Source: a bacterium (GTDB taxonomy: Bacteria; Vulcanimicrobiota; CADAWZ01). From it: a stretch of DNA of 19,234 nucleotides. The notes under the pieces were generated by a model. It was not told where the DNA came from and searched no databases. It worked only from the letters and a program-made list of their open reading frames with translations. This document shows, piece by piece, positions 1 through 11,114 of the stretch (positions are counted from its first letter, which is position 1; each line of letters begins with the position of its first letter). The stretch is from the NCBI GenBank assembly GCA_024409025.1, contig JAKSUM010000003.1, positions 1-19,234 on the forward strand. Direction: 5' to 3'. Position numbers and translations under genes: made by a program.

Positions 1-1058
1 AAACAGGCAAATACCAAGAAGCGGAAGAATGCTTTGACAGGATAATGTCAAAAGATCCCGAGAACACGAGAGCAATGATATATAAATCCGCATCGCTGAT
101 AAATCAGGAAAAATTTACGGAAGCGCTTTCGCTTATTTCAAAAATACTCGCCCTCGAACCGAGGAACGGCATGGCCATGCTTGCCCAAAGCATAGTCTTA
201 TACAGGACCGGCAAAATAAAGGAAAGCTCGGAAGTGCTGGAAAAAGTCTTCGACATAGAGCCTGAGAATCCTGAGGTCTGGAATGCCAGAGGAATAATAA
301 TGAGAAAACTTGACAGGATGAAGGAGGAGATATTCAGCTATAACAGGGCTATAGAACTGGATAAATTCAGCCCAAACGCATGCGTCAACAAGGCAATATG
401 GCTTATGGAAATAAACAAATATGACGCTGCCAAAAACCTTCTTGACAACGTCCTCTCAAAAAGGCCTGATTTTTCAATGGCATGGAGGGAAAGCGGCGAA
501 TGCCAGATTAAGCGCGAGCACCTGCGGGATGCTCTAAGATGCTATGAAATGGCGTTGCAATATAATCCGGACGATTATGAGTCATATAATGGAAAAGCGG
601 AAGTCATGTCAAAAACCGGTGGCAATATCAATGAGATATTGTGGACGCTTGAGCATTCACTCAGCATAAACAGCAGGCAGGGAAGAATATGGAATAATTT
701 CGGTGTCCATCTTGTAAAAGCCGGAAGATACGAGCAGGCATATAAAGCCTTCAAGAACGCATACGAGCAGGAAGATCTGCATGACGAGTTCCTTTACAAT
801 CTTCTTCTCCTGTCTATGGAAACGGGAAAGAAAGAGGATGCGGAGCTGTACCTCAAGAGATTCAGGGATACGGAGAACCAGCTTGATGTTCCTCAGGCTT
901 CAAAATCAGAGTATCTTGAGACCTCCTACAGAAAAACAATAACCCCGTTCCTTCTTATAGACTTCGCAGATTATTTCAAATGCGAGATAAAGGATCTTCC
1001 GATACTTCTCCCAAAAACAGGAGAATATCTGGCATCAAGGAAAAAACTGATAAAATAA
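1..1058 (+). CDS. TPR-repeat protein, 5' end outside the window
   Basis: The reading frame is open to the left edge: bases 3-44 encode TGKYQEAEECFDRI, itself a TPR helix, so the ATG at 45 is an internal methionine and the gene starts upstream of the window. What is visible is about 350 residues made almost entirely of 34-residue tetratricopeptide repeats, with the usual small and aromatic positions (for example ALRCYEMALQYNPDD and AYKAFKNAY). A non-repeat C-terminal part of about 60 residues (around PFLLIDFADYFKCEIKDLP) follows. TPRs are protein-protein interaction scaffolds; partner and pathway cannot be read from the sequence. I see no membrane segment or signal peptide in the visible part. 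The gene ends at a TAA directly before a bidirectional terminator shared with the convergent hydrogenase operon, so it is probably a separate transcription unit. Confidence 0.85.
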   Translation, partial: TGKYQEAEECFDRIMSKDPENTRAMIYKSASLINQEKFTEALSLISKILALEPRNGMAMLAQSIVLYRTGKIKESSEVLEKVFDIEPENPEVWNARGIIMRKLDRMKEEIFSYNRAIELDKFSPNACVNKAIWLMEINKYDAAKNLLDNVLSKRPDFSMAWRESGECQIKREHLRDALRCYEMALQYNPDDYESYNGKAEVMSKTGGNINEILWTLEHSLSINSRQGRIWNNFGVHLVKAGRYEQAYKAFKNAYEQEDLHDEFLYNLLLLSMETGKKEDAELYLKRFRDTENQLDVPQASKSEYLETSYRKTITPFLLIDFADYFKCEIKDLPILLPKTGEYLASRKKLIK

Positions 1059-1087
1059 AAAAAGCGGAGAATCCTCCGCTTTTTTTA
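1056..1087. terminator. Bidirectional intrinsic terminator between the TPR gene and the hydrogenase operon
   Basis: A perfect 7-bp stem, AGCGGAG (1063-1069) with CTCCGCT (1074-1080), encloses the loop AATC. It is flanked by an A-run on the left and a T-run on the right, so it has a U-tract on either strand. It lies between the TAA of the TPR gene (ends 1058) and the stop of the convergent hydrogenase gene (1100), and can end transcription from both sides. Confidence 0.9.
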
Positions 1088-1099
1088 TTTCAAATCAGG

Positions 1100-2527
1100 C
1101 TATTTGAGAAGCGATACGGCATCCTTTATGGTCTTTTCCATTGCCTCTCTTCCATAAGCGTCAACCTGCATCCTGTCCTTAGGACCATGAGTAAGACATC
1201 CGGGACCTCCGATACAGCCGCCTTCGCATGCCATTCCCTCTATAAAATTCCAGTCAGCGCCGGGAACATTCTTTGATTTTTTGAACAGGGCGGTCTTACA
1301 TGCCTCAATTCCGTCACAGGCTGTTCCATTAAGGGCAAACTCTATATTCTGTTCCTTAAGAGCCTCAGCTACAGCGTCTGAAAGCCCGCCGCACCTTGCA
1401 AAAATCCTGCCATAATAGGAAGCATTGTCAAGAGGAGAATTTTCCATTGACGTCAAGTCAATGCCATATGCATCTATAAGGGCCTGAAGTTCCTCAAACG
1501 TCATGGCCTCATCAACATAAGGAGCAACAGTCTCTTTCCTTACCTCAACCTTCTTTGCCGTGCAGGGTCCTATGAAGACAACCTTTGAAGAAGGATCATT
1601 TGACTTTATGTATTTTGCAATGGCTCCCATGGGCGAAAGAGAACCTGAGATATGCTTGGCCATTTCAGGGAAGTTTTTCTTTGCATAGTCAACAAAGGCA
1701 GGACAGCATGAGCTTAAAAGGAATCCCTTTTCCACAAGCTCCTTTGATTCTCCCAATGCAACCATATCGGCGCCAAGAGCAGCTTCAACAACAGTATGGA
1801 AGCCCATCTGCTTCATTCCGGCGACAACCTGGCCGAGCTTCGCATAAGAGAACTGGCTTGATATTGACGGAGCTACGACAGCATATACATGAGGTCCTCC
1901 GTTTTCAGACTTCTTAAGCATATCTATGACATTAAGTATGAAAGACTTGTCCATAATAGCGCCAAACGGGCACTGATAAACGCATGAGCCGCATGAAACG
2001 CACTTTGAATTGTCAATCAGGGCATGGTTATCAGGATCTATGCTTATGGCTTTCGGCTTGCATGCGTTCTGGCAGGGACGCGTTCTTACAACTATTGCAG
2101 AATAAGGGCAGACCTTTGAGCACATTCCGCATTCCACGCATTTTGACTTGTCAATATGGGCAACATGGCTGTGATTGTCAAAAAAGATAGCTCCCTTTCT
2201 GCAGGCTGCCTCGCATCTGTGAGCAAGACATCCCCTGCATGAAGACGTAACCTCGTAACCGGCAGCGGGACATTCGTCACATGCTATGTCTATAACCTGT
2301 ATTACATTAGGATTCTTTTTGTCTCCGCCCATGGCAATCCTTACACGCTCGGAAAGAATTGCCCTCTCCTTATAAATACAACAGCGCATTGTAGGAGTCT
2401 TGCCAGGGATTATCATCTTGGGAATGTCAAGAAGTGTCTCCGTAAGCCTTCCGGCAATGGCTTCTTCTGCGACAGTCCTCAATACCTTATACTTTAATTC
2501 CTGTACTTTTGTATCAAATTTTCTCAT
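1100..2527 (-). CDS. hydA: Monomeric [FeFe] hydrogenase, catalytic type
   Basis: 475 residues. Catalyses reversible proton reduction to H2 with ferredoxin-like electron donors in the cytoplasm. The H-cluster domain (about 210-450) shows all three signatures: SSCCPAF (C274/C275), GPCTAKK (C322) and MACEGGCIGGP (C434, C438). The N-terminal part is rich in Fe-S motifs: C97-x2-C-x4-C-x3-C109, C130-x2-C-x2-C-x3-C140, an extra C152-x3-C156 pair and C176-x2-C-x2-C-x3-C186; with C83 and C86 this makes 16 cysteines, enough for up to four [4Fe-4S] clusters. The usual MPC of the second signature is GPC here. I see no NADH-binding or HydB/HydC partners, so this is a monomeric (group A/B-like) enzyme. It starts 5 bases after the phosphatase stop and is probably translationally coupled to it; the only SD-like sequence (AAGGT) lies in the last codons of that gene. 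Last gene of the operon. The maturation genes hydE, hydF and hydG are not in the window. The family is certain; the subgroup is inferred. Confidence 0.93.
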   Translation of the reverse strand: MRKFDTKVQELKYKVLRTVAEEAIAGRLTETLLDIPKMIIPGKTPTMRCCIYKERAILSERVRIAMGGDKKNPNVIQVIDIACDECPAAGYEVTSSCRGCLAHRCEAACRKGAIFFDNHSHVAHIDKSKCVECGMCSKVCPYSAIVVRTRPCQNACKPKAISIDPDNHALIDNSKCVSCGSCVYQCPFGAIMDKSFILNVIDMLKKSENGGPHVYAVVAPSISSQFSYAKLGQVVAGMKQMGFHTVVEAALGADMVALGESKELVEKGFLLSSCCPAFVDYAKKNFPEMAKHISGSLSPMGAIAKYIKSNDPSSKVVFIGPCTAKKVEVRKETVAPYVDEAMTFEELQALIDAYGIDLTSMENSPLDNASYYGRIFARCGGLSDAVAEALKEQNIEFALNGTACDGIEACKTALFKKSKNVPGADWNFIEGMACEGGCIGGPGCLTHGPKDRMQVDAYGREAMEKTIKDAVSLLK

Positions 2528-2532
2528 AATCT

Positions 2533-3705
2533 TTAAAAATAACTGACCTTAACGCGTTTTCCCATCTTTACAAGAGATTCTGAAAGCTCTCTTGCAAGAT
2601 TCATCTTTATATTGAAGTTAATAGGAAGATCCGGATTCTGATGCGCAGGGTTTACAGCCCTGCCGACATAGAAGTTGATATCAGTAGCCTCCTCAAAAAG
2701 CATCCTGCTTATAAGTGAGGCTCCATCCCTGTTCATGCTCCACCTTGCATACGAATTATTCTCGCTGAGGTAATCCCTTGCATACTCTATTACCTTATTT
2801 ATAGTAATAACGCCTTCTGTAACGAGATCGACACCTTCAATTTCAGCAATCGGCGGAAGACCGGAATCATCAAAAAACAATGTCGGCTTTACCGTCTTGC
2901 CAAGATATTTTGCGGCAATGGACGAGGTTGTGCCTCCACATACGATATGCTTTCCCGATTTTGAGAAGAAAAGGGACATCATCCTGTTGCAGTCGTCAGG
3001 ATTTGACGGAGGTCCGAACAGTATGCTCATAGGCTCCCTTTTTCTAAGCCTGACCACACAGGATGTGGCATCATCCTTAGGCTCACCTCCGTAAAGGGAG
3101 TAGCATTCATCGACAAGAAGCGAAGCGAGATTTTTGGCGGTATAGCCGACGCTTGCGAATGTCTCCATAAATTCGATTATATGCTCCCTTTTCCATCCGA
3201 AGTTATACGCCTGACCGATTCCCGCATGAGGACATCCGTCGCTCATCATAACGAATATGTCGTCTTCCTTGAGTGGAATTACAGATTTGAGAATCTTCTT
3301 GCCGCCTATAGTCATTTCGGTAGTCTGGTACTCATAATTCTTTCCGTCTCTGAGAAGAATTGCAAGCGGATTGTCATACTGTATCAGCTCTGCAGTGGCA
3401 TTGTCTCGCAAATTCATGATTGTGAACGTAGAATAGGCAATGCCTCTTACCGAGCAGATAGGAAGAGTCTCGGCAATGGTTGACACGCATTCCTCGATAG
3501 AGAGCCCTGCAGCCATCATTGTCGATATAATTTTGGAAGTAAGGGTTGAAAGTATGCTTGCCTTTACTCCGCTTCCAAGGCCGTCTGCAAGAACGATAAC
3601 GGACGAATCATCTCCGCTGGGCACTATATCAACATGATCGCCGCAGAGCTGCTCGCCAACATGATTGACGCTTTTAAAACCGATATCAGCGCATAAATCA
3701 TTCAT
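2533..3705 (-). CDS. SpoIIE/PP2C-type protein phosphatase with extra C-terminal domain
   Basis: 390 residues. The N-terminal half (about 1-222) is a PPM/SpoIIE serine/threonine phosphatase domain with the metal-binding aspartates in place: LADGLGSG (D41), MMSDGCPHAG (D156) and DDAT (D211/D212). The C-terminal part, about 165 residues from GPPSNPDDCNRMM onward, is not a phosphatase domain; it has a glycine-rich stretch VCGGTTSSIAAKYLG and I do not recognise it. Phosphatases of this build are known beside PAS-containing [FeFe] hydrogenases in fermentative anaerobes, where they are thought to carry the hydrogenase signal. The gene overlaps the end of the sensory hydrogenase by 8 bases, so the two are translationally coupled, and it precedes the catalytic hydrogenase by 5 bases. 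The substrate is unknown; obvious candidates are products of the same operon. Soluble, with no membrane segments. Confidence 0.9.
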   Translation of the reverse strand: MNDLCADIGFKSVNHVGEQLCGDHVDIVPSGDDSSVIVLADGLGSGVKASILSTLTSKIISTMMAAGLSIEECVSTIAETLPICSVRGIAYSTFTIMNLRDNATAELIQYDNPLAILLRDGKNYEYQTTEMTIGGKKILKSVIPLKEDDIFVMMSDGCPHAGIGQAYNFGWKREHIIEFMETFASVGYTAKNLASLLVDECYSLYGGEPKDDATSCVVRLRKREPMSILFGPPSNPDDCNRMMSLFFSKSGKHIVCGGTTSSIAAKYLGKTVKPTLFFDDSGLPPIAEIEGVDLVTEGVITINKVIEYARDYLSENNSYARWSMNRDGASLISRMLFEEATDINFYVGRAVNPAHQNPDLPINFNIKMNLARELSESLVKMGKRVKVSYF

Positions 3706-5365
3706 CTTTTATAAACTCCTTAAGCTTTGTAAGGGCAATCTTAGTCTCTGCAGCGGTTTCACCGAGAAGAGACGCAATTTCCTGAACGATCTTCATCTGT
3801 TTATCGACAACCTTATCGGCAATTTCGACTGTCTGCTCGCTTATCCTGTCCTTCTTTCTTTTTGCGGCCTCCTCGTCGGTAACATCCCTCATAATACATA
3901 TTACAAGGCTTGACTCAGAATCATATACGACCGTCTGCTCAATAAATCTCTTATATTCAGCAAGATAAACCCTATGATCCCTGACATCCTTATGGGAATT
4001 AAGGACATTTATAAACACTGTAGGATCAAGAACTCTGATAACAGGCTCTCCAACAACATCTGATGCCGACTTAAGGTTCATCATCTTAAGAGCGGCAGTA
4101 TTTATCTGCTGCACCTCAAGGGAATCATTGAGAACAATAAGTCCATTGGGGCTGCTGCTGACAATGCTGTCAGAGAAGCTTTTCGCCTTGTCCTTAAGGA
4201 AGGGAAGGCACATGGATATATCAGCCTTGCCGTTAAATATCGCAGCGGCCTTTGCCCTGCAGGTATCATAGCCGCATGAACCGCAGTTAAGCTCGTCTTC
4301 AGGCTTTATCTTGCCCATCTTCCTTAAAATGGAAAGAATCTCATTCTCTGAAGGCATAGCGGCCTTTTTGTCAATAAACGTAAAATGCTTGCGCAAATCC
4401 TGATGAGAAGGCTGCAGGACGTCAAAATCTTCCTTTCCGGCGTACCTTTCTACGGCTTTGTAATTTTCAATCACTCCGCGCTTTTCCATAACAGGGCCGC
4501 CTATGCAGCTTCCATGGCAGGCGGACATTTCAATAAAGCATTTGGACACATTCCCTGAGGCAATATCCTGAAGGGCTTCCATACAGCTGTCAAGTCCGTC
4601 GACAACCATATATGTATATTCGGGATTCTTTTCAAGAATAGTATTAAGGACTCCGCCTGAAGTCGGAAATATTCTTGCAAGAGAATGATCATCATTATCA
4701 AATGCATGCTCAATCTCTATATTTTCCTTTTTAAGCCAAGCGCTGAGCTCATCAAAGGTAAGGACGGCATCAACGATACCCTCATAATGCTCAGCCTCGT
4801 CCTTTTTTGCGATGCATGGACCTATAAACACGGTCTTAGCATCAGGATATCTCTTTTTGATGTCCATGCAGTGGGCCTGCATGGGAGACAATACGTCGGC
4901 AAGGCATGAAAGCTGTGCGGGGAAATACTTCTGTATAAGAAGATTTACGGAATGGCAGCATGACGTTATGATTACATCGCGCTTTTCCTCCCTGACAAGC
5001 CTCTCATATTCCCTTTTTACAATAGTAGCTCCGATTGCAGTCTCTTCAGCCCCTGCAAAGCCAAGCTTCTTCAAAGCCTTTTCGATCTCTTTTATTCCCG
5101 TATTATAGTTAGCTGCAAAAGACGGAGCGACGCTGGCATATACGGGGGCTCCGGAATACATCAGAACTTTAGTCTTTTCAACTTCGCTGACAATCTTCTT
5201 TGCATTCTGGGGACATACGGCATAGCAATGGCCGCAAAGAATGCATTCTGATGAAATGATGTGCGCCTGATTTCCGGAAAAGCGTATTGATTTTACAGGA
5301 CAGTGCCTTATGCACTTATAGCAGTTCCTGCAGTTAGATTTATTAAGCTTAAGACATTCTGTCAA
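3698..5365 (-). CDS. Sensory [FeFe] hydrogenase with PAS domain
   Basis: Numbering is from a GTG at 5374 (558 aa); the TTG at 5365 that I prefer gives 555 aa. Domains in order: a 2[4Fe-4S] ferredoxin module (C15-x2-C-x2-C-x3-C25 and C44-x2-C-x2-C-x3-C54); an H-cluster domain (about 75-310) with TSCCHS (C139/C140), IGPCIAKKDE (C187) and MSACHGSCIGGP (C286, C290); a four-cysteine Fe-S motif CGSCGYDTC plus C389; a PAS domain (about 403-500); and a C-terminal helical stretch (about 505-558) that could form a coiled coil. This is the architecture of group C (HydS-like) hydrogenases, regarded as H2 or redox sensors rather than main H2 producers. TSCCH instead of TSCCP and GPC instead of MPC separate it from the catalytic enzyme. 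The cysteine preceding the presumed H-cluster ligand in the first signature is kept, so some turnover is possible. It sits between the [2Fe-2S] gene and the phosphatase, which it overlaps by 8 bases. There is no kinase or GGDEF output domain, so output must go through a partner. Confidence 0.92.
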   Translation of the reverse strand: MTECLKLNKSNCRNCYKCIRHCPVKSIRFSGNQAHIISSECILCGHCYAVCPQNAKKIVSEVEKTKVLMYSGAPVYASVAPSFAANYNTGIKEIEKALKKLGFAGAEETAIGATIVKREYERLVREEKRDVIITSCCHSVNLLIQKYFPAQLSCLADVLSPMQAHCMDIKKRYPDAKTVFIGPCIAKKDEAEHYEGIVDAVLTFDELSAWLKKENIEIEHAFDNDDHSLARIFPTSGGVLNTILEKNPEYTYMVVDGLDSCMEALQDIASGNVSKCFIEMSACHGSCIGGPVMEKRGVIENYKAVERYAGKEDFDVLQPSHQDLRKHFTFIDKKAAMPSENEILSILRKMGKIKPEDELNCGSCGYDTCRAKAAAIFNGKADISMCLPFLKDKAKSFSDSIVSSSPNGLIVLNDSLEVQQINTAALKMMNLKSASDVVGEPVIRVLDPTVFINVLNSHKDVRDHRVYLAEYKRFIEQTVVYDSESSLVICIMRDVTDEEAAKRKKDRISEQTVEIADKVVDKQMKIVQEIASLLGETAAETKIALTKLKEFIKDE

Positions 5366-5368
5366 GCC

Positions 5369-5377
5369 GATCACCTC
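5369..5377 (-). promoter_or_regulatory. Perfect Shine-Dalgarno that decides a TTG start
   Basis: On the minus strand GAGGTGATC (5377 to 5369) is fully complementary to the common 3' end of bacterial 16S rRNA (GATCACCTC). It overlaps the first in-frame GTG (5374), so that GTG is more likely part of the ribosome binding site. The TTG at 5365 lies 8 bases after GAGG, which is ideal spacing, so the sensory hydrogenase most likely begins there with MTECLKL. I see no SD upstream of the GTG. Confidence 0.7.
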
Positions 5378-5420
5378 AAAAAAAATATTTTTATATAATA
5401 AAAAAACTCCATATACTAAT

Positions 5421-5444
5421 GAGAGCCCCTTTTCAGGAGCTCTC
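5421..5444 (-). promoter_or_regulatory. Intercistronic hairpin between the [2Fe-2S] gene and the sensory hydrogenase
   Basis: GAGAGC (5421-5426) pairs with GCTCTC (5439-5444), continued after one mismatch by CC/GG, with a short A/T-rich loop. It lies 20 bases after the [2Fe-2S] stop in the only sizeable gap (about 90 bases) of the operon. On the transcribed strand the nearest long U-run begins about 14 bases after the stem, so it is not a textbook terminator. A partial terminator, processing site or 3'-end stabiliser that sets the ratio of upstream to downstream products is possible. Confidence 0.45.
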
Positions 5445-5464
5445 CTTATTTAATATGGATTTGC

Positions 5465-5704
5465 TTAAGCCTTAGGCTCTATTTCAGACTCAAAGAAGGA
5501 TGTCACTGATTCAGGAGATACAGAATGAATCTCTCCGTCAACGGTAACGCATACGCCCTGCTGGCACTTGCCCATGCAGAATGCACCGCCGAGCTCAACC
5601 TTATCCTTAAGGGAATTCTTGTTGATAAGCCACTGAAGCTGCTCGACAACCTGTCTTGCTCCTTTAAGGTGGCAGGAGCTTCCTATGCATACGGTAATCT
5701 TCAT
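5465..5704 (-). CDS. Thioredoxin-like [2Fe-2S] ferredoxin
   Basis: 79 residues with the thioredoxin-like ferredoxin pattern C6-x4-C11 ... C43-x3-C47, the four ligands expected for one [2Fe-2S] cluster (ITVCIGSSC and FCMGKC). Related domains are the small NuoE/HndA-type subunits and C-termini of electron-bifurcating hydrogenases. Free-standing ones occur in front of PAS-containing hydrogenases, where they may pass electrons to or from the sensory protein. An additional C52 is present. The start is an ATG preceded by GGAGGG about 12 bases upstream. It lies 35 bases after the phosphotransferase gene and 90 bases before the sensory hydrogenase, in the same orientation. Too short to contain a catalytic flavin or NAD site. 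Confidence 0.88.
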   Translation of the reverse strand: MKITVCIGSSCHLKGARQVVEQLQWLINKNSLKDKVELGGAFCMGKCQQGVCVTVDGEIHSVSPESVTSFFESEIEPKA

Positions 5705-5739
5705 TTTTAAATTTTGCCCTCCGCGTAATTTAGCATAAT

Positions 5740-6489
5740 TTAATTGTATTCAAAAACATTTACCCAGGAAAGCAGGAATTCACGTTCCTTCTCATTTCCC
5801 TTTGTAGACTGGGCAGCAGCGACAACAGGCATCCAATTCTGTACATCCTGCTTGGAAACTCCTGACTTCATGCAGTAAAGATCGAGATACTGAGAAGCGC
5901 CGTTTATGTTTCCGCCAAGCCAGAAAAGAAGATATGTTCTTGCAACATCAGCAAGAGGATTTCCCTGAGTGACATGAGCCCAATCAATAACGAACGGGCG
6001 GCCGTCTTCAGCTACTATGACATTGGAAGGAATGAAATCCCCATGGCATACATTGGCGCCTCTGGGCATTCCGTCGACTCTTGCATGAAGATCATATCTG
6101 GCAGTAGCATCAATGTCGGCAAGAGTGATCTGAGCGTTCATCTTGTCTTTCAGTCTGTTGAGATTAGGACATGTCTTGGAGAGTATATCCATGTGAAGCG
6201 ATACGAACTGCTCCAGATATTCATCCTTCTTCTCAGGCTCAAGCTCCATAAGGCGCTCGATAGTGTTTCCCTTTATATATTCGGACACTATTGCCCATTT
6301 TCCGTCGATCTTGCATACTTCCTTAATCTCAGGTATGCATATGCCGATTTTTTCAACCTTAGCCTGATTAAGAGCCTCATTGAGAACATCCGCCTTAGAA
6401 TATCCTTCATCAAAGACCTTTATGCAGTTGGCGCCGTCACGGTATACGGTCTTACTGTTTCTGACAGCTATGACTCTTTCAAGAACCAT
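5740..6489 (-). CDS. APH/choline-kinase-like phosphotransferase
   Basis: 249 residues with a complete kinase-like active site of the aminoglycoside/choline phosphotransferase fold: NCIKVF (K24, ATP-binding lysine), E38 in the following helix, a hinge around IVSEYIKG, catalytic loop VCHGDFIPSN (H149, D151, N156) and metal-binding FVIDW (D169). The true substrate is unknown. The family includes choline, methylthioribose, homoserine and aminoglycoside kinases, and some relatives act on proteins. An ideal RBS (AGGAGGGG) overlaps the adhE stop codon (TTAG), and the gap from adhE is only 9 bases, so it is co-expressed with adhE. Sitting in one operon with a PP2C phosphatase and a sensory hydrogenase suggests a role in a phosphorylation switch, but that is inference. 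Drug resistance is unlikely given this context. Confidence 0.85.
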   Translation of the reverse strand: MVLERVIAVRNSKTVYRDGANCIKVFDEGYSKADVLNEALNQAKVEKIGICIPEIKEVCKIDGKWAIVSEYIKGNTIERLMELEPEKKDEYLEQFVSLHMDILSKTCPNLNRLKDKMNAQITLADIDATARYDLHARVDGMPRGANVCHGDFIPSNVIVAEDGRPFVIDWAHVTQGNPLADVARTYLLFWLGGNINGASQYLDLYCMKSGVSKQDVQNWMPVVAAAQSTKGNEKEREFLLSWVNVFEYN

Positions 6490-6498
6490 ATTCCCCTC

Positions 6499-9213
6499 CT
6501 AATTTTTGTCCGTTTTGGAGCTGTATACATACTTAAAATTATGACTGTCGAACTGGGAATCTCCGGATGCGATGAATGAAGCGTCCGGCTTTTCCTCTTC
6601 CTTGAATGAGCGGCCATAGTAAGCATTGAGATACATCTGCTTAATCTCGCTCATAAGAGGATAGCGAGGATTTGCAGCTGTGCACTGATCATCAAACGCC
6701 TGTTCGGTCATTTCGTCCAGCCTGTCAAGGAAATCCTTTTCATCAGGAACATAATCCCTGATTGTAGGCTTTATTCCGACTCTTTCCTTGAGAGAATCGA
6801 TAGCCATTATAAGATTTTCAAGCTTGTCAGAATCGCTGTCTCCATCAATACCGAGCGCCTCAGCCACCTCAGCATAACGGGCAAGCGTATGAGGATGATC
6901 GTACTGCGGGAATGTTCCCATCTTAGAAGGAGCTTCTGACGCGTTGAAACGGAGAGTCTCGTCGATAAGAAGAGCATTTGCAATTCCATGGGGAATATGA
7001 TGGAAAGCTCCAAGCTTATGAGCCATTGAATGACATACTCCAAGGAATGCGTTTGCAAAGGACATACCTGCCATAGTTGCGGCATTTGCCATCTTCTCAC
7101 GGGCAACGGCATCATTAAGACCATTGTCATAAGCTCTGGGAAGATATTTGAATATAATCTGAAGAGCTCTGATTGCAAGAGAATCCGTATAATCTGTGGC
7201 CATAAGGGAAGCATATGCCTCCAAGGCATGCGTAACGGCATCAATTCCGGAAGCAGCCGTAAGACCCTTAGGGGCGGTCATATGGAAATCGGTATCTATG
7301 ATTGCCATATCAGGCATAAGCTCATAGTCAGCAAGAGGATACTTGACGCCTGTCTTCTCATCTGTTATTACAGCGAAAGGAGTAGCTTCCGAACCTGTTC
7401 CGGCGGAAGTAGGCACGGCTATGAAATAAGCCTTCTCCCCCATCTTCGGGAATACATATGTTCTCTTGCGGATATCCATGAAGCGCATTGCCATATCATG
7501 GAAGTCTGCCTCCGGATGCTCGTAAAGAACCCACATAATCTTGCCGGCATCCATCGCAGAGCCTCCACCAACAGCGATGATGCAGTCAGGGCGGAAAGCC
7601 TTCATCTGCTCGGCGCCTTCCCTTGCGCATGCAAGAGTCGGATCAGGAGCTACATTGAAGAAAGCCGCATGCTCAATACCCATTTCATCAAGCTGGCTGG
7701 TTATGGGCTTTATGCATCCATGCTCATAGAGGAATTTATCAGTGACAATGAATGCCCTCTTCTTTCCAAGAACATTCTTCAGCTCGTCAAGGGCAGTCCT
7801 CAGGCAGCCCTTCTTAAAATAGACTTTTTCAGGAGCGCGGAACCAAAGCATATTTTCTCTCCTTTCCGCAACTGTCTTTATATTAATAAGATTCATGGGA
7901 CCTACGTTTCCGGAAACAGAGTTGCCTCCCCAAGAGCCGCAGCCGAGGGTGAGAGAAGGATCGAGTCTGAAATTATAAAGATCTCCGATTCCGCCATGAG
8001 ACGAAGGAGTATTTACGAGAACACGGCATGTCTTCATGCGTGAGCTGAATTCCTGTATCTTATCCTGCTCTGTGACAGCATTAAGATATATGGAAGAGGT
8101 ATGTCCGAATCCGCCGTCAGCAACAAGCCTTTCCGCCTTTGCAAAAGCGTCCTGTATATCCTTAGCCCTGTACATTGCAAGAACAGGCGAAAGCTTTTCA
8201 TGAGCGAATTCCTCAGAGATATCAACGCTTTCCACTTCGCCAATGAGAATCTTTGTTCCACAAGGAACATTTACATGGGCAAGAGCCGCTATAGTGGCAG
8301 CCTTCTGGCCGACAATCTTGGCATTAAGAGCGCCATTGACAATAATTGTCTTTCTGACTCTCTCTGTTTCATCTTCTTTAAGGAAATAGCAGCCTCTTGC
8401 CGCAAATTCAGCCTTTGCAGCATCATAGACCTTGTCAAGGACTATTACGGACTGCTCTGAAGCGCATATCATTCCGTTGTCAAAAGTCTTGGAATGAATG
8501 ATTGAGTTTACGGCAAGAACGACATCAGCCGTATCGTCAATTATCGCGGGAGTATTTCCTGCTCCGACACCGAGGGCGGGCTTTCCGCTTGAATAAGCGG
8601 ATCTGACCATTCCAGGGCCTCCGGTTGCAAGCATTATGGCCGCCTTCTTCATCCGAGTCGCTTTCACCTCAAGGCTCGGAACATCAATCCATGAAATAAT
8701 ATTCTCAGGAGCTCCGGCAGCAACAGCGGCTTCAAGAACAATCTTTGCAGCCTCAACAGTAGACTTTTTAGCTCTCGGATGAGGGCTGATAATAATTCCG
8801 TTTCTTGTCTTCAGGGCCAAAAGAGCCTTGAAAAAAGCCGTAGAAGTCGGGTTAGTCGTAGGAATTACAGCCGCAACCACGCCTATAGGCTCAGCAACCT
8901 TTTTCATTCCGCTGGCCTTATCCTCACAGATTACCCCACAAGTCTTGAGATCTCTGTATTTGTTATATATATATTCAGAGGCGAAGTGGTTCTTTATAAC
9001 CTTATCCTCAACTATGCCCATCCCAGTCTCTTCAACAGCCAGCTTTGCCATTGATATGCGGGCTCTGTTAGCTGCCATAGCTGCAGCAGAAAATATCCTG
9101 TCAACCTGCTCCTGAGTATATGATGCAAAAATCTCCTGAGCGGCTCTGACTCTAGAAATTGCGGCTTCAAGCTTTTCAACGCTGTCCGTAATTTCATATA
9201 CGTTGCTTTCCAT
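6499..9213 (-). CDS. adhE: Bifunctional acetaldehyde-CoA/alcohol dehydrogenase
   Basis: 904 residues. Converts acetyl-CoA to acetaldehyde and then ethanol with two NADH, the main ethanol route of fermenting anaerobes. The N-terminal aldehyde dehydrogenase domain (about 1-440) has the catalytic cysteine in NGMICASEQS (C250) and a nucleotide loop near GVGAGNTPA. After a linker, the C-terminal Fe-dependent alcohol dehydrogenase domain (about 460-870) shows GGGSAMDAGK, PTSAGTGSEATPF, and iron-binding His in SGIDAVTHALEAY and in the VCHSMAHKLG / HHIPHG region. Length matches typical AdhE (about 870-900). I chose the ATG at 9213 because AAGGAGGG ends about 8 bases upstream; a GTG further out (9237) lies before this RBS. 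AdhE forms filaments (spirosomes) in other bacteria. First gene of the hydrogenase operon, driven by the promoter at 9278-9306. Confidence 0.97.
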   Translation of the reverse strand: MESNVYEITDSVEKLEAAISRVRAAQEIFASYTQEQVDRIFSAAAMAANRARISMAKLAVEETGMGIVEDKVIKNHFASEYIYNKYRDLKTCGVICEDKASGMKKVAEPIGVVAAVIPTTNPTSTAFFKALLALKTRNGIIISPHPRAKKSTVEAAKIVLEAAVAAGAPENIISWIDVPSLEVKATRMKKAAIMLATGGPGMVRSAYSSGKPALGVGAGNTPAIIDDTADVVLAVNSIIHSKTFDNGMICASEQSVIVLDKVYDAAKAEFAARGCYFLKEDETERVRKTIIVNGALNAKIVGQKAATIAALAHVNVPCGTKILIGEVESVDISEEFAHEKLSPVLAMYRAKDIQDAFAKAERLVADGGFGHTSSIYLNAVTEQDKIQEFSSRMKTCRVLVNTPSSHGGIGDLYNFRLDPSLTLGCGSWGGNSVSGNVGPMNLINIKTVAERRENMLWFRAPEKVYFKKGCLRTALDELKNVLGKKRAFIVTDKFLYEHGCIKPITSQLDEMGIEHAAFFNVAPDPTLACAREGAEQMKAFRPDCIIAVGGGSAMDAGKIMWVLYEHPEADFHDMAMRFMDIRKRTYVFPKMGEKAYFIAVPTSAGTGSEATPFAVITDEKTGVKYPLADYELMPDMAIIDTDFHMTAPKGLTAASGIDAVTHALEAYASLMATDYTDSLAIRALQIIFKYLPRAYDNGLNDAVAREKMANAATMAGMSFANAFLGVCHSMAHKLGAFHHIPHGIANALLIDETLRFNASEAPSKMGTFPQYDHPHTLARYAEVAEALGIDGDSDSDKLENLIMAIDSLKERVGIKPTIRDYVPDEKDFLDRLDEMTEQAFDDQCTAANPRYPLMSEIKQMYLNAYYGRSFKEEEKPDASFIASGDSQFDSHNFKYVYSSKTDKN

Positions 9214-9277
9214 CAAGCAACCCTCCTTTGTTTTCACTGTCTTTCTAAAAATCTATTATTTAAAACAAACTTAATAT

Positions 9278-9306
9278 ATTCTAACATATAATTATTAATA
9301 ATTCAA
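9278..9306 (-). promoter_or_regulatory. Sigma70-type promoter of the adhE-hydrogenase operon, with palindrome in the spacer
   Basis: On the minus strand TTGAAT (-35, 9306-9301) is followed by a 17-bp spacer and TAGAAT (-10, 9283-9278), extended by TG one base upstream. The expected start near 9271 gives a leader of about 58 bases to the adhE ATG. The spacer and part of the -35 hold a perfect 14-bp palindrome, AATTATTAATAATT (9290-9303), which could be an operator, although in such AT-rich DNA it may be chance. Confidence 0.7.
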
Positions 9307-9364
9307 TATTAAGACAAAAAACCTTGCCATACTCCCCATAAATAAAAAGAGTCACCTGCCCACA

Positions 9365-9434
9365 AGCCGAATTAACGGTCTTGTTACATCACAGGATGTT
9401 TGACAGCACCGTTTAAAGAAAAACATACTCGGCT
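9365..9434. repeat. Nested inverted-repeat (structured) element upstream of the adhE promoter
   Basis: An outer stem AGCCGA (9365-9370)/TCGGCT (9429-9434) encloses a long inner hairpin: AACGGT (9374-9379)/ACCGTT (9408-9413), then CTTGT/ACAG (one bulged base), then ACATC (9386-9390)/GATGT (9395-9399) with loop ACAG. GC content and pairing stand out from the AT-rich surroundings. An alternative pairing of CAGC-CCG with CGGCTG would compete with the outer stem. It could be a small RNA, the 3' end of the LysR transcript or a cruciform protein-binding site; the strand is undetermined because the pairing works on both. Confidence 0.5.
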
Positions 9435-9515
9435 GTAACCGCATGTACTTCGCTTTTTTAAAATTGGCTTATTTAATAAAAGGAAAAAATATGCACCTTC
9501 GGACTTGGCAAAACG

Positions 9516-10436
9516 TCAGTCCAAATATTTTCTCTTGGAATCGCACAGCCTTGTAATAAAGTCCTTGTCAAGATCCGAAAGCAGATATCCTTTCTTATAG
9601 ATAAGAACATCCTTGAAAATCTTTGCAGGCCCTGAAAAGTTTTTCTGTACAAGGCCGTATTTTGCAAGATTATCCTCTGATGTCTTAGGATGCCACATAA
9701 AAGCTTCAGGATTTTCCGAAACTATCCTGAATCTTAAAGCCCTGTCCGAAACAAAAAGACGCCTTGAGGACTCACCCGATATGTTGTCCCTCTTCAATTT
9801 TGCTGAAGGAAGATCGGATGTATCACATTCGGATATCCTTATGTAAGGCTTTAAATCCTGCAGTCTTATCGATTTCATAGATGCGAGCGGGCTATCTTTT
9901 CTCATGGTTATAAGGAAAGAAAATTCAGAAATCAGCTCGCAGTTAAAAATCTTATCTTTAAGCATACTACGGAAGACCTTGTCGTAATCGCTGCAATACC
10001 TTATGATCCCCAGCCTGCAGTCAAAAGCCCCGACCCTTTCAACCGTATTTAAGGCTGTATCCTCATAATATCTGAATTCAGACTCTCCGTTTGAAGAATT
10101 CGCCCTGACAAAATCAGAAAAGGCAAAGGAAATATAATCAGCCTCAGGGGCGGATATTGAAAATCTGTTAACAGACGGGCGGACCCCCTTATATATCTTT
10201 GCAATATCATCCATATGGGCAATAAGCCTGCGGGCATGGGAAATAAAAACCTCCCCGTCCTTGGTAAGCATCATTCCTCTTGCAGATCTTTCAAATATGC
10301 ATATTCCCAGCTCCGCTTCAAGCTCCTTTATGCATCTGCTTAAATTAGGCTGGGCAATCAGCAGAGCCTTGGAAGCCTTATTAACAGAGCCCGTCTTTGC
10401 AACCTCTACGGCATATTTCATATGAAGAATATTCAA
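9516..10436 (-). CDS. LysR-type transcriptional regulator
   Basis: 306 residues, the usual LysR length. The N-terminal winged helix-turn-helix (about 1-62) has the family pattern: AVEVAKTGSVNKASKALLIA, QPNLSRCIKELEAELG and LTKDGEVF. A linker helix and a periplasmic-binding-protein-like effector domain (about 90-300) follow. The ligand cannot be inferred. The start is a TTG: AGGTGA lies about 5 bases upstream on the minus strand, while the ATG five codons later has poor spacing. It is co-oriented with, and just upstream of, the adhE-hydrogenase operon, separated by 302 bases that include a separate promoter, so adhE is a natural target candidate. It also faces a divergent TPR gene; a LysR-type T-N11-A dyad in that spacer suggests autoregulation. 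Confidence 0.93.
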   Translation of the reverse strand: MNILHMKYAVEVAKTGSVNKASKALLIAQPNLSRCIKELEAELGICIFERSARGMMLTKDGEVFISHARRLIAHMDDIAKIYKGVRPSVNRFSISAPEADYISFAFSDFVRANSSNGESEFRYYEDTALNTVERVGAFDCRLGIIRYCSDYDKVFRSMLKDKIFNCELISEFSFLITMRKDSPLASMKSIRLQDLKPYIRISECDTSDLPSAKLKRDNISGESSRRLFVSDRALRFRIVSENPEAFMWHPKTSEDNLAKYGLVQKNFSGPAKIFKDVLIYKKGYLLSDLDKDFITRLCDSKRKYLD

Positions 10437-10610: not shown

Positions 10611-11114
10611 ATGAATATGAACAATCCAACACAGGCTGATGTAATAAAATCTCTTGCAAGCAGAGCAAAATCATTTGCAGGCGAAAAGAGATATTCGGAA
10701 GCAGTAGAGGCTCTTGCGGAAATTACAACACTTGATCCAAGAAATTTTCAAGCAAATTTTCAGATGGCTCAAATCTTCTATGTTATGAAAAAATTTCCTC
10801 AGGCCGAACAAAAATGCCAGCAGGCGCTGATAATAAAGCCGGAGGACATAAGACCCTGGCTTATACTCGGAAACATATATCTTGCGACAGGAAGCTTTGA
10901 CAAAGTAATAAGCCAGCTTCCGGCAGGGCTTTCAATGAATCCGGACAATTTCCAGCTCAACTATCTCGTCGGATACGGATATGCAAAAAAAGGCGAATTC
11001 CGCAAAGCAAAGGAATATCTTGAAAAAGCAATGCGCATAGAACCAGGCAACCCCAAAGTCCGCCAGGCTATAACAATGGTCAATCAGGTTCTTTCAAGAG
11101 GCACAGGAAGATAA
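10611..11114 (+). CDS. Small TPR-repeat protein
   Basis: 167 residues composed of about four tetratricopeptide repeats (SEAVEALAEITTLDPRN, PQAEQKCQQALIIKPED, a degenerate one near FDKVISQLPAGLSMNPDN, and RKAKEYLEKAMRIEPGN) with a short N-terminal helix and a basic C-terminal tail. It has no signal peptide or other domain, so it is a cytoplasmic scaffold of unknown partner. The ATG has a strong RBS (AGAGGAGAA) about 9 bases upstream. Transcribed divergently from the LysR gene and ending in its own bidirectional terminator, it is monocistronic. It resembles the TPR protein at the left edge in repeat type, but nothing shows they work together. Confidence 0.85.
   Translation: MNMNNPTQADVIKSLASRAKSFAGEKRYSEAVEALAEITTLDPRNFQANFQMAQIFYVMKKFPQAEQKCQQALIIKPEDIRPWLILGNIYLATGSFDKVISQLPAGLSMNPDNFQLNYLVGYGYAKKGEFRKAKEYLEKAMRIEPGNPKVRQAITMVNQVLSRGTGR

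Follow-up and report, generated by a model that had tools for sequence, protein, structure and literature searches.

The window analysed here is a stretch of 19,234 nucleotides (nt) from a bacterium of the phylum Vulcanimicrobiota (contig JAKSUM010000003.1, assembly GCA_024409025.1). It carries a cluster of fermentation genes in which a kinase of the aminoglycoside phosphotransferase (APH) fold follows adhE, and the role of this kinase and the origin of the cluster are the subjects of this report. Six open frames, all on the minus strand, were found in the order adhE, APH-fold kinase, [2Fe-2S] protein, HydS, SpoIIE/PP2C phosphatase, and HydA. The [2Fe-2S] gene falls below the limit of 80 amino acids (aa) of the open reading frame list and was taken from the sequence and from a domain search instead. 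The genes, together with that of a regulator upstream, are as follows:

6499..9213, minus strand: adhE, bifunctional acetaldehyde-CoA/alcohol dehydrogenase, 904 aa (PRK13805, 1361.9 bits; placed with Clostridial AdhE in the tree)
5740..6489, minus strand: APH-fold kinase, 249 aa, catalytic residues intact, probable AdhE companion (PF01636)
5465..5704, minus strand: thioredoxin-like [2Fe-2S] ferredoxin, 79 aa (PF01257)
3698..5374, minus strand: HydS, putative sensory [FeFe] hydrogenase with 2×[4Fe-4S], H-cluster domain, FeS motif, and PAS-like domain (PF02906, PF04060, PF00989 just below cut-off; 65% identity to HydS of Ruminococcus albus)
2533..3705, minus strand: SpoIIE/PP2C-type phosphatase with a C-terminal part of about 160 aa without Pfam family (PF07228, E 1.9e-16, residues 32-220; model and fold search)
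1100..2527, minus strand: HydA, catalytic monomeric [FeFe] hydrogenase, group B1 (TIGR04105, 550.7 bits, cut-off 450)
9516..10436, minus strand: LysR-family regulator, probable regulator of the operon (HTH_1, PF00126; 45% identity to the LysR that precedes the operon in R. albus)

The intergenic gaps from adhE to HydA measure 9, 35, 90, -8, and 5 nt, the negative value being the overlap of 8 nt between hydS and the SpoIIE gene; six co-oriented genes with small gaps or overlaps, as described in the original prediction made for this DNA from its letters, were thus confirmed. The ribosome site of the kinase (AGGAGG) overlaps the TAG stop of adhE, and the catalytic residues of the kinase are invariant in 39 sequences, in agreement with the intact kinase gene described there. 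The LysR gene (10436-9516), a homologue (45%) of the one found ahead of the operon in R. albus, probably belongs to the same unit.

In HydS, the H-cluster domain (PF02906, E 5.7e-50) and Fe-S clusters (PF04060, E 1.4e-11) are present. For the PAS-containing sensory hydrogenase of the original prediction, the C-terminal PAS domain (PF00989) scored 21.7 bits, just under the Pfam cut-off of 22.6. The protein resembles the group C sensory [FeFe] hydrogenases (HydS, HfsB) in its H-cluster domain, Fe-S motifs, PAS-like domain, and phosphatase neighbour, and no difference from them was seen in the features tested, the PAS score lying just below the cut-off. The true start of HydS is more likely TTG 5365 than GTG 5374, because the GTG sits within a Shine-Dalgarno-like GAGGTG and the relatives at loci L090 and L093 begin at the matching residue. 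In the SpoIIE phosphatase, D41, D156, D211, and D212, which we take to be the metal-binding Asp motifs, are invariant in seven sequences, that of the window included, and the 50 matches listed by the fold search were phosphatases or phosphatase-containing chains. Its C-terminal part of about 160 residues (2533-3015, minus strand) is conserved among relatives and has no Pfam family; a profile search with this part gave 3k6q at E 0.06. A role as input domain for HydS is possible.

The kinase scored 43.1 bits with PF01636 (APH), above the cut-off of 23.2. Residues K24, E38, H149-G-D151, N156, and D169 are invariant in a structure alignment of the window protein with the proteins of 27 of the 31 kinase loci described below (L027, L035, L037, and L039 omitted) and 11 of 119 other listed homologues. 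The fold is of the small-molecule kinase type, with 8-17% identity to solved kinases. Fold and catalytic motifs are shared with the aminoglycoside phosphotransferase/choline kinase fold family of PF01636, from which the window kinase differs by its adhE linkage and by a TIGR02172 score (53.8 bits) far below the cut-off of 228.2. At E 0.01 the window kinase gave no match to the protein kinase family PF00069, which was listed for five of six relatives at 16.1-26.4 bits, below the cut-off of 31.7. A precomputed PF00069 label, besides APH, on 4 of 120 homologues listed from the best 8000 candidates scored counts against non-membership in that family. The label of a eukaryote-like protein kinase, reported from Zheng et al., was tried and found to be unsupported by the profiles.

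Scanning of genome_contigs gave 31 kinase loci, each with adhE directly upstream (31/31). HydS was seen at six of these loci, which are also those with SpoIIE, some contigs being too short to tell. When 15 adhE-kinase genomes of this set were searched whole, with all candidates scored, HydS was missing in nine at E 1e-60, and the other six have HydS at the kinase locus. A larger survey covered 391 genomes of one class, namely that of L009, a Clostridia metagenome-assembled genome (MAG). Kinase matches below 185 bits (9 of 102 rows) and the second fragment of G202:C77 were omitted, and 93 kinase places (at least 185 bits) in 89 genomes were obtained. In 77 of the 93 places the kinase stands immediately behind adhE (73, and 4 more in which the contig ends within AdhE), with a median of 20 nt between aligned ends. 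The other 16 places comprise six before a HydS module without adhE, two with AdhE downstream, one with HydA downstream, and seven without such a neighbour (six inspected; G346:C442 left out of inspection). AdhE place counts were drawn from the best-scoring listed places; the 15 weakest listed HydS rows (below 275 bits) and AdhE rows below 928 bits were omitted at the level of places and restored at the level of genomes.

HydS lies within 6 kb of the kinase in 30/93 places, and no HydS match was found in 46 of the 89 kinase genomes. The odds ratio of kinase and AdhE was 105 with strong AdhE and 39 with all 175 AdhE genomes. That of kinase and HydS was 2.8-3.5 overall and 1.6-1.75 among AdhE-positive genomes (p 0.16-0.22), in which kinase and HydS are statistically independent. 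At L107 and L108 the order is [2Fe-2S]-HydS-SpoIIE-HydA-AdhE-kinase; the kinase therefore stays behind AdhE in a reshuffled order. The adhE-kinase pair was also found in a Collinsella record, with no HydS within 8 kb, and in two Spirochaetales MAG records.

Some further kinase relatives were seen in other company. At L103 and L134 a HydA relative stands directly downstream of the kinase with no HydS in between, and diverged copies at L099 and L101 (49-51% identical) lie upstream of a cysteine desulfurase-like gene, read from its N-terminus. Fermentation context was absent around a kinase relative in Methylorubrum, and none of five stretches that matched the kinase pattern in viral contigs was a relative.

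The closest known system is the operon on pRUMAL01 of R. albus 7 (LysR-Rex-adhE-kinase-2×[2Fe-2S]-HydS-SpoIIE-HydA2), with which the window shares genes, order, orientation, and kinase position. Identities between window and R. albus proteins are 64% (kinase), 65% (HydS), 73% (AdhE), 74% (SpoIIE), and 72% (HydA). Where R. albus has Rex and a pair of [2Fe-2S] genes, the window lacks Rex, has a single [2Fe-2S] gene, and carries a terminator-like hairpin in front of hydS. In Clostridium thermocellum, the annotation of Cthe_0422-0430 matches in the published account: Rex, AdhE, aminoglycoside phosphotransferase, hypothetical protein, Fe-S cluster domain protein, SpoIIE, NADH dehydrogenase 24 kDa subunit, and Fe-only hydrogenase. 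Going by the locus numbers, the gene of the 24 kDa subunit comes ahead of that of the hydrogenase, and the system was likened by annotation, not by sequence. Cthe_0426 is presumably HydS. The same account gives Cthe_0424 as an aminoglycoside phosphotransferase by annotation and states that the region Cthe_0422-0432 falls together, and strongly, after furfural.

The operon of R. albus has been treated by Zheng et al. 2014 and Greening et al. 2019. According to one account, a putative eight-gene cluster of R. albus with a ferredoxin-only hydrogenase, a bifunctional alcohol/aldehyde dehydrogenase, and a putative sensory hydrogenase drops 111-fold in co-culture with an H2 consumer (PMC6776011); another gives 90-fold for HydA2 in that response (PMC10838669). 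The ferredoxin-only hydrogenase is assigned to group A1 in PMC6776011, whereas the window HydA scores as B1, the R. albus protein being unscored here. Zheng et al. proposed that HydS signals to the adjacent Ser/Thr kinase, as told in PMC5707799. Because of the R. albus cluster and co-culture data, this proposal, and the C. thermocellum region, layout and H2 control are already published. The H2-responsive operon joining both electron sinks is thus supported through the R. albus work, not as a novelty; a kinase between adhE and sensor and co-transcription with adhE, which the original prediction took to be possibly new, already occur on pRUMAL01 and, by annotation, in C. thermocellum. No study of the AdhE-companion kinase was among the matches listed beyond these operon papers, subscription literature being thinly covered.

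The kinase was found in 2 of 149 genomes of the phylum, the window genome included, and five genomes of its class were searched. On the contig of the second positive genome (L134) the order is Rex-AdhE-kinase-HydA. Outside the cluster, the flank XseA-XseB-IspA-Dxs-PqqD-like-FGGY is syntenic with three genomes of the same family (dxs 67-71%), and the contig is therefore not misplaced. The window AdhE is 59-60% identical to the AdhEs of these three genomes, compared with mostly 73-80% to AdhE beside Clostridial kinases. In a tree of 56 of 85 AdhE frames (at least 800 aa, duplicates removed), it belongs to a supported group of four Clostridial-type rows, one of which is its own. From these sequence comparisons the operon was likely acquired horizontally, apparently from Clostridia. 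No near-identical DNA was found on plasmids. TPR-like genes stand on both flanks of the acquired segment, one with TPR repeats by Pfam at 3-1058 (plus strand) and one recognised by eye at 10611-11114 (plus strand).

The same-family genomes have a cluster of their own. G001 (L136) carries a kinase-free [2Fe-2S]-HydS-SpoIIE-[2Fe-2S]-HydA-AdhE cluster; HydS, SpoIIE, an 88-aa frame, HydA, and AdhE follow in the same order in G003 (L135), and on a single contig of G002, the genes of which were not read individually, HydS and AdhE are spaced as in these two. No kinase match was found in G001, G002, or G003. Their native HydS is 33% identical to that of the window over residues 12-557, and a domain search at E 1e-5 listed no PAS family in it. 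In the window genome, which is 69% complete, the Clostridial version was the only one seen, and the native HydS-SpoIIE-HydA-AdhE cluster seems to have been exchanged for it.

The following signals for transcription were located:

9214..9515, minus strand: leader between LysR and adhE, 302 nt, with promoter-like TTGAAT-N17-TAGAAT at 9306-9278 (consensus match only)
5400..5459, minus strand: hairpin resembling a terminator, with a U-run, in the gap from the [2Fe-2S] gene to hydS (-27.3 kcal/mol, z -4.75, 0/200 shuffles as stable; U7 tail)
1051..1092, minus strand: intrinsic terminator closing the operon 3' of HydA (19-pair stem and T tail; -27.4 kcal/mol, z -7.57)

Promoter-like sites in the region numbered 18, compared with 15.6 expected by shuffling, and the consensus scan found 5 terminator-like sites, compared with 8.3 expected; the hairpin at 5459-5400 is absent from its list. 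The gaps within the cluster are short, yet this stable hairpin with its U7 stands before hydS, so a single transcript across the locus is not a given, and transcription may be attenuated or split there. The kinase, the phosphatase, and Rex reportedly share one transcription unit with the dehydrogenase in the operon studied by Zheng et al. in 2014. A check of 17 relatives, confined to gaps of 25-500 nt, showed a strong hairpin of terminator type upstream of HydS in L092 and a weak one in L020; because just these two had it, the hairpin is no conserved part of the system. In the window it occupies the spot of the second [2Fe-2S] gene of R. albus. Long structured gaps separate the kinase from the HydS module at L019, L020, L091, and L109. 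Upstream of the operon, a LysR homologue is also found in R. albus, L009, L093, and L094, and Rex stands at that place in L010, L019, L030, and L031, R. albus having both. The best matches to a Rex-box-like pattern in the adhE leader had 3-4 mismatches, and the window gave no Rfam matches and no tRNAs.

The window is best read as an acquired H2-responsive fermentation operon of the R. albus/C. thermocellum type, in which the kinase is a companion of AdhE and not half of a HydS switch (probability about 0.72). From the distribution we infer that this enzyme does not serve as the dedicated kinase in a switch with HydS and the phosphatase; partnership with HydS as its main role was ruled out by its place behind adhE, the kinase genomes without HydS, and the independence among AdhE-positive genomes. 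Several points weigh against this reading. The six kinase and HydS places without adhE (L090, L092-L096; one behind an Fe-ADH-like frame) and L103, with kinase and HydA only, lack the proposed partner. The kinase lies within 1 kb upstream of HydS at 28 of 111 HydS places and at 26 of the 52 best-scoring ones, and no kinase is directly downstream at 50 of 123 strong AdhE places (contig ends uncorrected). The p-values overstate the evidence because the sampled genomes are related, AdhE and HydS absences in the 391-genome survey are softer than in the search of 15 whole genomes because scoring stopped at the best 2 and the best 3 candidates of each genome, and loss of the native cluster is unproven because the window genome (G000) is only 69% complete. 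Because of the HydS places with the kinase nearby and the six without adhE, a role shared with the sensor is possible.

Spelled out, the phospho-switch of the original prediction would have HydS sense H2 via PAS, with the phosphorylation state of AdhE and HydA governed by the kinase and the SpoIIE phosphatase and the flux split post-translationally. The joint presence of kinase, sensor, and phosphatase here and in R. albus, the adhE-free kinase-HydS places, and the proposal of Zheng et al. would fit such a switch, as would hfs mutants of Thermoanaerobacterium saccharolyticum, in which NADH-linked alcohol dehydrogenase (ADH) was up and aldehyde dehydrogenase (ALDH) was not, from which the authors inferred post-transcriptional control. 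It is nevertheless very unlikely, and a kinase/phosphatase pair setting flux is unsupported: the kinase tracks adhE and often occurs without HydS, kinase-free HydS-SpoIIE-HydA-AdhE clusters exist in the same family, the fold is that of small-molecule kinases with PF00069 below cut-off where listed, and the H2 response is shown at the transcript level in R. albus. Moreover, no Ser/Thr/Tyr was kept in AdhE with the kinase and lost without it (31 AdhEs with and 18 without; L104, L110, and L122 had been dropped beforehand, as had four outgroups of the same class, L049-L052). A C-terminal tail shared by the AdhEs of kinase-bearing loci was also looked for, and none was seen. The phosphosite result bears as well on a kinase that phosphorylates AdhE independently of H2 sensing, for example with regard to spirosome state or ADH/ALDH balance. 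Such an enzyme would suit the close and widespread adhE-kinase pairing in Clostridia, the Collinsella record, and the Spirochaetales records, but SpoIIE at just 6 of the 31 kinase loci and the fold also speak against it, and we regard it as unlikely. Phosphorylation of a small molecule tied to acetaldehyde/alcohol metabolism, in a substrate, repair, or detoxification step, has close to an even chance, although the fold alone names no substrate and identity to solved kinases is low. Accidental hitch-hiking, in which the kinase stands behind adhE by shared ancestry and is unconnected with fermentation, could draw on the strong AdhE places without kinase, on the seven kinase places without fermentation neighbour, and on the starred branches of the AdhE tree, which force just 3 label changes. 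The pairing persists, however, through gene reshuffling and in several phyla, and the whole tree needs 9 label changes, compared with 18.7 in shuffles (0/500 as low), which fits repeated gain or loss of the kinase with persistence; we consider hitch-hiking highly improbable. A part in anti-phage defence was also considered and rejected, the padloc matches being only weak.

For the preferred reading of an acquired operon with an AdhE-companion kinase, high H2 would switch the operon on, mainly via transcription. HydS would read H2, and the translationally coupled SpoIIE phosphatase would change the state of some regulator, for which LysR is a candidate; AdhE (NADH to ethanol) and HydA (ferredoxin to H2) would then be made. 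What has been demonstrated is the transcript response, in R. albus only; that the signal passes from HydS to DNA in this way, and does so in this organism, is our proposal. The kinase would most likely serve the function of AdhE, by phosphorylating a small molecule around the AdhE reaction (about an even chance) or, with lower probability, AdhE itself or another protein, and would adjoin the HydS module by accident of layout. In a bolder version, which we consider quite unlikely, it would be a dedicated regulator, in Clostridia and more widely, whose target is AdhE or the filaments that AdhE forms, modified by the kinase, with the HydS module docked behind it and adding H2 control in some lineages. 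The split of electrons between ethanol and H2 in anaerobes sets the ethanol yield of biofuel strains and the supply of H2 to rumen methanogens.
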